The notes under the pieces were generated by a model. It was not told where the DNA came from. It made no database searches and saw only the letters and a list, made by a program, of their open reading frames with translations. Positions 25,659-31,145 of a stretch of DNA of 64,000 nucleotides are shown here, in pieces. The stretch covers positions 496,001 to 560,000 of the forward strand of contig NC_092812.1 of assembly GCF_040954645.1 (NCBI RefSeq). Direction: 5' to 3'. Numbering within the stretch: the stretch's first letter is position 1; each line of letters starts with the position of its first letter. This DNA comes from Diabrotica undecimpunctata (lineage: Eukaryota > Arthropoda > Insecta > Coleoptera > Chrysomelidae). The position numbers and the translations under genes were made by a program.

Positions 25659-26046
25659 ATATATCTATTATTTTTTGTGAGGTTCTGAAACTGCTTCCTT
25701 GTGGAACATCGAATTTAAATATTGTGTTTATATGGGATTAACCCATTTACGGCCAAAGGTGCGTAAACGCAACCTTTATTGTTAATTTTTTTTTGGCCCG
25801 AAAATAGTTTTTTTAATGTTCTCTTTTTATTGAAGTAACATTTCAATAGATTGAGGTATATAGTATCATTTTTCTTTTGATAAAAATATTACTTTTTAAA
25901 TATTTTAAGATTATTATAATTTTGCATAATTTAATGATTTATGCACATCTTCATACAAAAAATTTTTCCGATACTAATTATAAACTTAATTCATATTAAA
26001 AATAAAATTAAAGACAGTCAAGATTTCTTTTCACGCAAAAATAGTC

Positions 26047-26104
26047 TATGTATCTGTTGATACGTATTTCGCTTTAATAAAGCTCATCAGAACAGTTATT
26101 CATA
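26047..26104 (-). ncRNA. Type I hammerhead ribozyme, copy 1
   Basis: On the minus strand: stem I strand UAUG-AAUAA-CUGUU, core CUGAUGA, stem II GCUUU-AUU-AAAGC, core GAA, a very short stem III from the self-complementary AUACGUAU, cleavage-site C, then stem I return strand AACAG-AUA-CAUA. All invariant core bases are present. Predicted cleavage falls between plus-strand positions 26059 and 26058. The minimal stem III is typical of hammerheads in Penelope-like elements and retrozymes, which may act as dimers. Confidence 0.85.
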
Positions 26105-26448
26105 CGCTTTCTCAACGTGAAAATTAATCTTTTCCTGTCTTTGTGAAGCAACGATAAAATGGCTTCGAAACGGACGCAATAGCGACATCTGATATTAAAT
26201 CCGTAAAATAGTTTCGAAACACAATTCAGATAACTGCCTTAATCTGAACCTTCTATAAATGCAAGGTATAACAGACGCTGATAAAGATGTTAATAGAGAC
26301 ATGGGGAATCTAAAATTTGCATTCCACGACATGTCTCCTCAGCTAAGCAGAAATCGTTAGCGAATTGGTTTCTTGTACTCATACAGAGTAGATCCGAATA
26401 AAAATAAAATTAAAGACAGTCAAGATTTCTTTTCACGCAAAAATAGTC

Positions 26449-26506
26449 TATGTATCTGTTGATACGTATTTCGCTTTAATAAAGCTCATCAGAACAGTTA
26501 TTCATA
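26449..26506 (-). ncRNA. Type I hammerhead ribozyme, copy 2
   Basis: Identical to copy 1 over the whole 58-nt motif, including core, stem II and both stem I segments. The predicted cleavage site lies between plus-strand positions 26461 and 26460. Cleavage at both sites would release a 402-nt RNA. Confidence 0.85.
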
Positions 26507-26899
26507 GGCTTTCTCATATTTTGTATTCTATAATTATAAAAATATGTTGAAATTTTTATTATTCTAAAAACTTATTCATTCATACTTTAAAAATAAGGTC
26601 TATAATTGCATGTTTATACGATGGATTCGTATACGCACCTTTGGCCGAAACCATATTATATTTTTTTCGTAGACTAAACAATCTGAAATTACGATCTCGT
26701 CAATAGTCAATACTATTATATTTGCTTTTTTCTTGACTTAAATCAGTTTGAAAGTTTCCTTGTGTTTATTTGTTTTATATTCCATATAAGTTGAAATAAG
26801 GTAAGCTAAATTATTATCATATGAATGCGTGTATATAGTAGTAGTATATTTTTAATAGTGCATGTTTTTGTTTATTTTAGTAAATTCTCGAAATAGGTA

Positions 26900-27837
26900 A
26901 TGAAGAGGGCACTAATTACTAAAGAGTTAATGGCTTTGTTAGAAGAAGACTCAGACTGTGAAAATGCTGACTCACTTGATGTGGTTTATGTGCCGCCGGA
27001 AACAGATGAAATTTCCGATGTAGAAGACATTGATGATAATATTATTGGTACAGAAGGAATAAAAACAGATTTTTGCAGGTATATATGAAATACAAGTGAA
27101 TGGGAATTCTGATGATGATATTCCTCTGAACCACAGATCAAAACGTCCAAAGAAAGAACCAGGCAAAAATAATAAATCCAAATTTGTCCCAAGTTGGGTA
27201 AAAACAGATACTTCTTCGTACTCGGCAGTAATTCAACATCAGTCTGATCGATATTTAGAAAATATAAAAGCCAACCATGGAGGCAAGTAACATTGAAGTT
27301 TTTTTACTCTTTTTTGATAAAGAAGTAAGTGAGAGCATTCGATATTTTACAAATATTTATGCATCGCAGAATAACCGCCACAGATTTAAAAAAATTTATT
27401 GGCATATGTATATTATCTGGTTATCACAGTCTGCCTCAACTTGATATGTATTGGTCGAAGGATGAGGATAAAGAAGCGAACATTGTAAGAGAAAGCATGA
27501 GCCGACATAGATTTCGTTCAATCAAACAGAACATACATTTGTCAGACAACACCTTACTGAATAAAAATGATAAATTTGCAAAATTGTCACCAATTTTTGA
27601 AATAATTAACCGAAAGTTTGCACAAAATTGGAGTCTTTGCAAAAAATCTTTCCATTGACGAGGAAATGGTTCCATATTTCGGGCGACATTCGTGCAAAAT
27701 GGCCACATTGTAAAAAGAGACGATAATAGTGCAAGAAGAAAATGTCGGATGTGCAAAAGTAATACTATTTATTTATGTAAAAAGTGTACAGTGCATCTAC
27801 ACCCCGAATGTTTCGAAAATTTTTATCTTAAAATTTA
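26900..27837 (+). pseudogene. piggyBac transposase 1, central domain deleted
   Basis: Pieces in order: acidic N-terminus (26900-27088, LMALLEEDSDCENADSLDVV); a basic stretch (HRSKRPKKEPGKNNKS, 27130); the conserved DDE_Tnp_1_7 start (DLKKFIGICILSGYHSLPQL near 27390, MSRHRFRSIKQNIHLSDN near 27500); then SIDEEMVPYFGRHSCK with the first catalytic D near 27655. Reading then jumps directly to the C-terminal cysteine domain (CRMCKSNTIYLCKKCTVHLH, 27740-27800). The second and third catalytic Asp regions are gone. Two or more frameshifts are present. Dead; it could only be moved by a related enzyme in trans. Confidence 0.85.
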
Positions 27838-28049
27838 ATTTACAGTTAAGATACAATATGTTACTTTTTTAAAAATTGTATGCGTATTCGGCCAAAGGTG
27901 CGTATACGCACCAACCTGTTTTTCCTTTCATGAGAAAAAAAAAATCTTTTTGGTTGTAAATTAGTCTTAATTTATGTGTTTTTAATCCAATCTAATAAAT
28001 CAATTGTCAAATTTCTCTTTGTTTATTGTCTTGGCCTTTAATGGGTTAA

Positions 28050-28668: not shown

Positions 28669-29312
28669 GCAATGCCCATAAGAAATACATTAAATATGAA
28701 GGTTGGTGTCCCTATATATCGAGTTTGTTGTCAGGGAAGTGTCCCATGAAAGCATTTTATTTGACCTTGATTCTTTCGCGCTCTCCTACTCACATTATAT
28801 TTTCCTGGCGTCACGTCTGTTAAAACAGGCAGTCTCTCCATATACTTTGCATGGTGCAGTCGTTTATTGTGCGTTTCTACAGACGCGTTTTGGGTGTCGC
28901 AAGCAAATTGTCGCAATTATAGCAAAAGTAAGTACATTTAAAAGTTTATTATTATTTTTAAAAACTGCCTCAGATAAAATCTATATTTATTCCCACGATA
29001 GACTAAAACAAAACCATTATTTTCACTGGTATATTTATTCTCAAAATAGACTAAAACAAAACCATTATTTTTGCGTGATTGCTGATTCGATATTGAACAG
29101 CCAGACTTATTGTTTAGTTTGAAAGTCGCTCAAACCTTCGGCTAACGCTAACAGATACATGGTATATTATTACCTTGTTCTACGTGTTATTTTTCGTCCA
29201 TCACATATGACTCTTACATATTTTTGTGCTTAGCCTATCTTTGAAATAAAAATGTATTGACGGTCAAAGTAAATTATTTTACAAATAAACACTTGTTCCA
29301 GGTTCTGAAAAA

Positions 29313-31145
29313 ATGGACCCTAAAGAAGAACGCAGATTACTGGATCTTTTTGATGAAGTTGAACCTGAATCGGATGATGAAAATGATGATCACGAGAGTA
29401 GCAGCGATACAGACCAATTTGCTGGATCAGATGATAGATACCTAGAGTATTCACCTACAAATGATAGTTATTCTGCTAATTCATCTGACGAATCTAATTT
29501 CAATTCAACTCCACTACCACCACCAGATAAAACTAATTCAACTCCGCTACCTGTCGTAGGTCAAACTAACCCAATTCCACCACCTGTCGTAAATCAAACT
29601 GTAGAGGTTGCGGATGGTTCTAGTTCCGAAGAATCTGATGATTGGGAAGAAACGTATGATGACATACCAGACTTTCAGTTCGATCATGCTGCTGCCGGGA
29701 TACAACTACATTTTGACCATGAACCTGTACCACTAGAAATTTTCAAATTGCTTTGGACTGACGAAGTAATGGATCTTCTTGTAAATAGTACCAATGGATA
29801 TGGTCTCAAGCTGGAGATATCAAATCGCCCTAAACCTAAACATTCCAGAACAACTAACTTTGTTGAGACTACAAAAGAAGAACTTTACAAATTTATAGGG
29901 ATTTCTTTATTGCAAGGACAAATTCGATTTCCAATTATGCGAAAACTTTTCTCATATGATCCACTATACTACCACCCTGTATTTTCCTATGTTATGTCCG
30001 GACGCCGATACGAACATCTGCTCAGATGTTTCAACTGCACAAATGAAAAAGACAAAAATGATAGGCTCAATAAAGTAAGTGAATTATTGAAGATTTTGAT
30101 TAGGAACTACCAGAGCGCTTACTCTCCCGAGGAAGCATTGTCCCTGGATGAGTCCCTATTATTACATAGAGGCAGGCTGAGTTTCAGACAATACATCAAA
30201 GGAAAGAAAGCAAAATATGGAATCAAATTCTACGAGCTGTGCACGACAAAAGGTTATACTTGCAACATCGACATTTATAAAGGCAAAGAAATAGAAGAAG
30301 GCAATATGACAAAATTGCAATCTATCGTATTTAGGCTTCTTTCACCTTTTTTGGACAAGGGACACCATGCTGTTATGGATAATTATTATAACAGCGTTCC
30401 CCTGTCAAACCAATTACTTCAACGTAAAACTCATACAACAGGAACCCTTAGGTCGAATCGCAGAGGAAATCCTAAAGAAATCACCACCAAAAAAATTAAG
30501 AAGGGTGAGCATAAATGGCTGCGAAAGGGCAAGGTGTATGTCTCCAAATGGAAAGATAAGCGGGAGGTGTTGATGATTACCACCAAATTCCATCCAGAAA
30601 TGATCGAGACTACTAATTCTTACAACAAAACTAAAATTAAACCAAAAGAAGTCTCAGAATATAACCTAAATATGGCAGGTATTGACAGAAGTGACCAGTT
30701 AACATCTTATTACAGCTGTCCACGAAAATCGATACGATGGTATAAAAAAGTAATATTTCATCTGATTGACGTTACTGTTGTCAACAGTTACCTTCTTTAC
30801 CGAGATATAACGAAATCGAAGATCACCCTTCTTATGTTTCGAGATGCTATAATAAAAGATCTACTTGGAATTTCACCAAATATAAAAGACGGAAGAAAAC
30901 TTGTCAAACGTGGGTCGATAAATAATCCCAGGGAATGTTCAAGTTCAGCCCCTCCTCAAGCTGCTTTACAACATGTTTTGGAGAAAATACCCTTGCCTTC
31001 CAGTTACAAAAGAAAAAGTTATTTTTTGAGATGTCGCCAATGCTCCAGAAATGGAAAAAGAGGACAGACATCATGGCGCTGCTCTGGATGTGATGAGAAG
31101 CCACCGCTATGTGCAGGAGATTGTTTTAAAAATTTTCACTTGTAA
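29313..31145 (+). CDS. piggyBac transposase 2, intact, 610 residues
   Basis: Full-length piggyBac-family transposase, which excises and reinserts DNA at TTAA without leaving a footprint. The acidic/Ser-rich N-terminus contains a three-fold 11-residue repeat (64-96, NSTPLP/NSTPLP/NPIPPP). The DDE_Tnp_1_7 catalytic domain spans about 135-500, with candidate Asp 279 (LSLDESL), 356 (VMDNYYN) and 458 (AGIDRSD). The C-terminal cysteine domain (574-609) has C574, C577, C590, C593, C600, C604 and a late His, which reads TIR DNA in relatives. Start: ATG at 29313 just after a TTGTTCCAG that looks like a 5' UTR splice acceptor. No stop or shift; length fits active family members. Residue numbers are by hand count. 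Confidence 0.95.
   Translation: MDPKEERRLLDLFDEVEPESDDENDDHESSSDTDQFAGSDDRYLEYSPTNDSYSANSSDESNFNSTPLPPPDKTNSTPLPVVGQTNPIPPPVVNQTVEVADGSSSEESDDWEETYDDIPDFQFDHAAAGIQLHFDHEPVPLEIFKLLWTDEVMDLLVNSTNGYGLKLEISNRPKPKHSRTTNFVETTKEELYKFIGISLLQGQIRFPIMRKLFSYDPLYYHPVFSYVMSGRRYEHLLRCFNCTNEKDKNDRLNKVSELLKILIRNYQSAYSPEEALSLDESLLLHRGRLSFRQYIKGKKAKYGIKFYELCTTKGYTCNIDIYKGKEIEEGNMTKLQSIVFRLLSPFLDKGHHAVMDNYYNSVPLSNQLLQRKTHTTGTLRSNRRGNPKEITTKKIKKGEHKWLRKGKVYVSKWKDKREVLMITTKFHPEMIETTNSYNKTKIKPKEVSEYNLNMAGIDRSDQLTSYYSCPRKSIRWYKKVIFHLIDVTVVNSYLLYRDITKSKITLLMFRDAIIKDLLGISPNIKDGRKLVKRGSINNPRECSSSAPPQAALQHVLEKIPLPSSYKRKSYFLRCRQCSRNGKRGQTSWRCSGCDEKPPLCAGDCFKNFHL

Follow-up and report, generated by a model that had tools for sequence, protein, structure and literature searches.

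Animal non-LTR retrozymes, as described by Cervera and de la Pena (2020; PMC7229834, in the text available to us) from hosts that include insects, are low-GC, non-coding tandem repeats with units of 150–450 bp, each carrying a type I hammerhead ribozyme; they are present in many dispersed copies, and their RNA is predicted to form a compact circle. Their helper enzyme and integration route are left open in the available parts of PMC7229834 and PMC7761336, the latter stating that no motif in animal retrozymes points to a helper, and the available parts of PMC8490949 and PMC12910113 add nothing further on either point. Plant LTR retrozymes (PMC4918200, in part) are also non-autonomous and hammerhead-bearing, with a circular RNA intermediate, but have a type III hammerhead, an LTR with PBS/PPT, and 4-bp duplications.

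The other close system is that of the Penelope/Poseidon-type elements, which carry a hammerhead in the terminal repeat and have sense-divergent inverted ends, two starts and an AT-rich target (PMC11167929 and PMC3846280, in the parts available). A purified Penelope protein, predicted to be a dimer, was reported to cut and extend both DNA strands with a preference for 5'-ATT-3', and to start copying at two positions inside the RNA, by which the genomic tail is set (PMC11167929). These sites are adjacent, are used alike on both strands, and showed no homology to the cut DNA. The protein inserted unprocessed RNA and the hammerhead was not needed; therefore, a ribozyme-made circle is not required by that enzyme. 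The later insertion steps are called unvalidated in the same source. In rotifers, Penelope copies have inverted repeats arranged head to head, one of which may carry a tail, together with 8–10-bp duplications, and the inverted repeats have been attributed, as a hypothesis, to self-priming (PMC3846280).

We analyzed a 64,000-nucleotide stretch of contig NC_092812.1 from the beetle Diabrotica undecimpunctata (the window; all positions below refer to it unless a contig or locus is named). Two 118-bp repeats at 25997–26114 and 26399–26516 are spaced by 402 bp and differ at a single base, exactly as the first-pass annotation had claimed. A type I hammerhead descriptor matched the window twice, both times within the repeat pair on the minus strand (CTGATGA at 26090 and 26492), and 60 dinucleotide-shuffled windows gave 1 match, which bears out the tandem hammerheads proposed there. 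Copy 1 (26046–26105, minus strand) was delimited by the descriptor and by comparison with other copies, and copy 2 (26448–26507, minus strand) by the descriptor and a constrained fold of the consensus; cleavage is predicted between 26059 and 26058, and between 26461 and 26460, respectively. The one mismatch lies at unit position 109, within ribozyme stem I. This position is G in 226 of 227 unit pieces from L009–L045, the sole exception being L009, a duplicate of the window locus. Because C replaces G there, the outermost stem I pair is missing from copy 1, and the earlier description of both hammerheads as intact was slightly too strong.

Covariance models gave only sub-threshold matches. An Rfam search of 5 kb returned no hammerhead at E ≤ 1, and a search of the whole 64-kb window gave no match reaching the gathering score. 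When 91 bases were searched alone, the two top bit scores, 17.8 and 16.1, belonged to hammerhead families (E = 0.096 and 0.95, respectively), whose gathering scores are much higher, at 48.5 and 56.3. The hammerhead was not the minimum-energy structure in a plain RNAfold run on the 62–66-nt ribozyme, and enforcing it in the whole consensus circle cost 4.9 kcal/mol. In both the descriptor and the constrained fold, stem III has at least 2 bp; this short stem sets the ribozyme apart from the minimal hammerhead without helix III that characterizes Penelope.

One unit (25997–26398, minus strand; GC 35%) was defined by repeat spacing, 402-mer mapping and a coding check. It is non-coding: the longest stop-to-stop frame over three rounds of the 402-nt circle is 54 aa. 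No open reading frame for a Penelope-like reverse transcriptase or GIY-YIG nuclease lies between the window repeats. The predicted circle of the window unit folds at -100.7 kcal/mol (z = -4.7 against 100 shuffles), the consensus circle is predicted to be 62% paired, and the fold places site A and a stretch beside site B, the two start sites described below, at a central junction. The earlier suggestion of a 402-nt unit that could yield a circular RNA is supported.

A genome check for further 402-nt tandem units, proposed in the first-pass annotation, revealed many copies. A 37-nt core occurs 2,885 times at up to 2 mismatches in the 1.74-Gb assembly (1,423 forward and 1,462 reverse), and the reversed core 0 times. 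With the 520-bp query, at least 234 matches were found in 39 scored of 869 candidate places, and the matches listed are 99–100% identical. Older copies (contig C1, L046 and L050) have core spacings of 403–406 bp and identities of 92–94%, from which there is probably more than one subfamily.

The element thus carries several features of animal non-LTR retrozymes: a conserved type I core, a low-GC tandem unit within 150–450 bp, high copy number, no coding capacity, and, in its two-arm insertions elsewhere in the genome, a target duplication longer than 4 bp (12 bp). Because only a non-coding 402-nt unit separates the repeats, the sequence supports a non-autonomous animal retrozyme of D. undecimpunctata rather than a Penelope terminal-repeat pair. 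The first-pass annotation had posed these as alternatives; the content decides for the retrozyme, yet the insertion marks resemble Penelope, and the question is less either-or than it was put.

The window copy is a one-arm insertion of 1.28 units (25997–26513, minus strand), delimited by 402-mer mapping and by an empty site in other piggyBac copies. It runs from unit position 1 to 118 over more than one round; the RNA sense is the minus strand, and the plus strand corresponds to the cDNA. Start site A (unit positions 1–8; 25997–26004) was used by this copy. Start site B (unit positions 199–206; 26195–26202), where the second arm begins elsewhere in the genome, was not. The predicted 12-nt target, CTTAATTCATAT (25985–25996, plus strand), has AAA before it and, in the empty site, TTT after it, which fits the AAN-12-NTT pattern described below. 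On the far side, as comparison with the empty site shows, all that is left of the target is TCATATT (26514–26520, plus strand), whose TCA also belongs to the element end. The window copy is therefore read as a one-sided event, in which the second overhang was trimmed and joined through the TCA microhomology.

The host is a non-autonomous piggyBac-like element (25738–28049, plus strand) with TTAA-bounded ends and a broken transposase (PF13843, 78.5 bits), so that the dead piggyBac of the first-pass annotation is real. A 205-nt query of the joined flanks found a full-length match in 40 of 40 scored places among 162 candidates, with the top score of 370 bits in 25 places and 366 bits in 15. Because these flanks recur almost unchanged, the host family looks young, as judged on 205 nt, and the claim that the unit is young relative to a decayed host was not supported. 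The same insertion, with identical private bases, is found at C1:95394335 (L009), where the segment duplicated along with it measures 2.9 kb or more. Transport inside a moving piggyBac was rejected as the source of this twin: the shared stretch extends from 25654 to at least 28563, beyond both piggyBac ends. About 1.2 kb to the right of the host lies a second piggyBac element (29289–31145, plus strand) with a 618-aa stop-to-stop transposase frame (DDE_Tnp_1_7, 278.5 bits).

We analyzed 45 distinct insertions (the window copy, L010–L051, L063 and L064). This is a small sample against thousands of cores, chosen mostly by best match: 36 (L010–L045) were picked in this way, with a bias to long young arrays, and 8 came from a coordinate-ordered list on contig C1. 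By reading, 32 insertions have two arms and 13 have one, L051 being a doubtful one-arm case among other diverged pieces. In all 32 two-arm insertions, the plus-strand arm lies to the left of the minus-strand arm, and the RNA sense thus diverges from the center. Likewise, among clusters of exact cores on contig C1, by our own grouping, 10 of 31 were mixed-strand, and all of these ran plus, then minus.

The outer ends fall at two fixed unit positions, A (about 1–8) and B (about 199–210). One A end and one B end were present in 30 of the 32 two-arm insertions, and A/A or B/B pairs in none; the exceptions are L027 (left end at 369) and L034 (left end at 217, in (AT)n). Among the 27 two-arm insertions tested, the first base of the element itself lay at 2–8 on the A side in all 27, and on the B side at 199–206 in 26 and at 210 in one; the left end was of type A in 13 insertions and of type B in 14. 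The inner ends are scattered, and the arms meet at junctions with few-base overlaps or filler. Extra pieces occur in L011 and L017, and 119 bp of other sequence separates the arms of L032. In L044, about 4 kb of other sequence, perhaps a later insertion, lies between the arms. The filler of L049 (2111–2122) resembles a reverse-complement copy of its own target duplication, which suggests templated end joining. The retrozymes of PMC7229834 are, in the text available, direct tandem repeats, unlike these beetle copies with two arms of divergent sense and two fixed cDNA starts.

Self-priming, as proposed for rotifer Penelope in PMC3846280, would produce an inverted arm when the cDNA folds back or jumps template and is recopied. 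Penelope elements typically do have head-to-head inverted repeats and junction palindromes, according to the same partial text, but such recopying predicts mirror-image arms from one start. Here the outer ends lie at two different positions in 32 of 32 insertions, and the arms are unequal in length and inner break point. We disfavor this explanation and give it very little weight.

In two-arm insertions, a 12-bp target duplication without mismatch surrounds both arms in 25 of the 27 tested; L044 (11/12) and L030 (10/12) are imperfect. Of the one-arm insertions, only L014 and L031 have such a duplication. Across the sample, the longest string shared by the two flanks reached 8 or more in 39 of 43 insertions, some of these strings, including that of the window copy, lying away from the boundary, compared with 33 of 600 mismatched pairs. 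Three paralogous empty sites, 82–96% identical, each contain a single target copy. For L039 the site is L062 (96%), with just 13 bases to compare past the target; for L032 it is L023 (82%), which aligns without a gap; and for L049 it is L031 (84%), where small gaps lie clear of the target.

These data bear on whether the arrays are ordinary satellite DNA that grew by unequal crossing-over and was inverted by later rearrangement or assembly error. Tandem arrays do reach 15.5 units in the longest case (L031), and the irregular variants of L013, L022 and L036 described below may reflect later exchange. Rearrangement should not, however, give dispersed insertions, 12-bp duplications around both arms, or empty sites, and fixed outer ends with a single polarity in 32 of 32 would be unexpected from it. 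We regard the satellite explanation as disfavored and extremely improbable.

When the 27 two-arm insertions were aligned on the duplication, the flanks gave the consensus AAN-[12]-NTT, with A at -2 in 25, A at -1 in 24, T at +14 in 24 and T at +15 in 21 (p = 4e-10 to 3e-6 against window base composition). Because this motif is symmetric, each strand appears to be cut just before NTT. The duplication and the motif go beyond the description of retrozymes in the available text of PMC7229834. Two insertions were read once the rule had been set: L063 has one A and one B end, a 12/12 duplication and AAAT / ATTT flanks; L064 likewise has an end of each type but lies in a (TA)n tract, in which a duplication would be masked. 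Retrozymes within (TA)n are L034, L035, L047 and L064; most sit elsewhere. The primer 3' ends match the RNA template over a mean of 1.83 nt, compared with 0.65 nt after shuffling (maximum of 2,000 shuffles, 1.17), and 13 of 54 have no template match. This slight matching differs from the homology-free starts of the purified Penelope protein in the available text of PMC11167929.

Two-sided target-primed copying of one RNA could also be the work of a LINE-type enzyme. L1 twin priming yields inverted arms together with target duplications, both target ends priming on one RNA much as we propose for the retrozyme. It is occasional, acts on linear RNA, and its second start is not known to be fixed, unlike the two fixed sites used in 30 of 32 beetle insertions. 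In the parts available, PMC7229834 leaves the choice between LINE and Penelope open while favoring Penelope, and PMC4918200 likens the 15-bp duplications of Nematostella repeats to those of LINEs. Against a LINE-type enzyme, the constant 12-bp stagger and the symmetric AAN...NTT suit a nuclease that treats the two strands in the same way when cutting, which has been reported of a Penelope protein (PMC11167929, in part). We consider a LINE-type enzyme unlikely.

We then examined template variants, defined as testable when one arm had at least 2 units covering the position and all of them carried the variant. The set comprised 27 of the 32 two-arm loci, and five were testable (L024, L025, L033, L034 and L044). 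All six variants at these loci were present in every covering unit of both arms, and five of the six were absent or seen once elsewhere, indicating that at these five loci the two arms go back to a single template or to sister RNAs from the same locus. Mean unit distances (0.0060 in the same arm, 0.0051 in the opposite arm and 0.0064 between insertions) separate insertions poorly.

The templates might instead be long linear multimers, or several sister RNAs of one source locus, rather than a single circle. Sister RNAs would indeed hold private variants in common, and in 10 or more arrays, as multimeric templates would lead one to expect, variants recur in some units only (L013, L014, L019, L020, L022, L028, L030, L036, L041 and L042). 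One arm of L016 repeats a three-unit pattern across seven units, which is what a trimer template would give. In L013, L022 and L036, variant spacing along the array is irregular and is not explained by a simple monomer circle. The minus arm of L013 has a 16-nt deletion in 2 of 7 units. L019 was considered as a dimer-template array and rejected, one unit breaking the alternation. Sister RNAs would, on the other hand, allow A/A and B/B pairs, which were found in 0 of 32; the hammerheads should cut linear multimers; and one variant present in all 16 covering unit pieces of L031 comes most simply from a monomer circle. Such templates are, in our judgment, distinctly improbable, and a circle would be the simplest template for both arms.

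Penelope elements also occur in this genome. A GIY-YIG search, in which 150 of 6,686 candidates were scored, gave at least 73 matches, all above the cut-off. One element (L052) has a 605-aa Penelope frame with a GIY-YIG domain of 27.6 bits (cut-off 22.6) and a reverse transcriptase of 29.0 bits, just below the cut-off of 29.6; the frame is probably 5'-truncated, because many relatives have about 820 aa. It is flanked by inverted repeats with a hammerhead-like motif. Inverted pairs of the L052 family were sense-divergent in 5 of 5 seen (L052 and four further copies, the latter from 40 scored of 1,590 candidates), and those of a second Penelope family had the same polarity in 3 of 3 seen (40 scored of 125), making 8 of 8 for the two families together. 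In each of the four further copies, CTAACTACTTTATA closes one arm, the other arm stops at ACTTTAT, some 43 nt upstream, and both ends abut (TA)n. Two different start sites are thus present in 4 of the 5 copies read; in L052 itself, only the CTAACTACTTTATA type is clear. Four copies (L053–L056) have both ends in (TA)n microsatellites, and the family is apparently a (TA)n-targeted element, to which the retrozyme target, not confined to (TA)n, stands in contrast.

The retrozyme thus displays Penelope-like working marks, with both target strands extended into sense-divergent arms in 32 of 32 two-arm insertions and from two start sites. Because it shares two-strand extension, two starts and an AT-rich target with Penelope, a Penelope-type enzyme is a candidate helper. 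Differences are also evident: the retrozyme has no reverse transcriptase of its own, and its starts are about 200 nt apart, compared with 30–40 nt for Penelope in the available sources. A sequence link was sought and rejected: the retrozyme unit and the Penelope 3' ends read gave weak matches only (best E = 0.022) and no clear common sequence. Nor was a Penelope family with the 12-bp AAN...NTT mark found, the flanks examined being those of the L052 family in (TA)n.

One reading best joins what was observed here, namely the polarity of the arms, their two fixed starts, the 12-bp duplication with its target motif, the empty sites, and the template variants common to both arms: a Penelope-type enzyme would cut the two DNA strands, and each of the resulting 3' ends would prime on a single circular RNA. 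We put its probability at about 0.64. The circular RNA, the Penelope helper and the sequence of events are inferred to be as follows. Transcripts of retrozyme arrays would undergo self-cleavage at the hammerheads, and the 402-nt product would close into a circle. A Penelope-type protein, probably a dimer, would cut AT-rich DNA at AAN-12 bp-NTT and leave 12-nt 3' overhangs, as the duplications suggest. Each 3' end would prime reverse transcription within the same circle, one at A and the other at B, about half a circle apart. Each cDNA might run from a fraction of a round to many rounds before both ends were joined mid-insertion. The outcome would be a pair of tandem arms copied from a common template and enclosed by a single 12-bp duplication. 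Where one side only was copied, the other overhang would be trimmed and joined by microhomology, and the window copy may be such a case. By a slender balance, we also favor a wider hypothesis, that a Penelope-type dimer inserts circles by two-sided target-primed rolling-circle reverse transcription and that two-sided priming, not self-priming, also makes the inverted terminal repeats of Penelope.

The two-arm insertion anatomy was not found in the open-licence literature searched on retrozymes, hammerheads and Penelope-like elements; animal retrozymes themselves are already known. The near-identical beetle insertions record start sites, cut, template and joining, and suggest a testable route by which ribozyme circles may return to animal genomes. 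Given these records, both the return of retrozymes and the origin of Penelope inverted repeats can be tested in vitro with a known type of enzyme. If the proposed reading is true, D. undecimpunctata would harbor a natural system by which circular RNA is written into DNA in the form of a tandem array.
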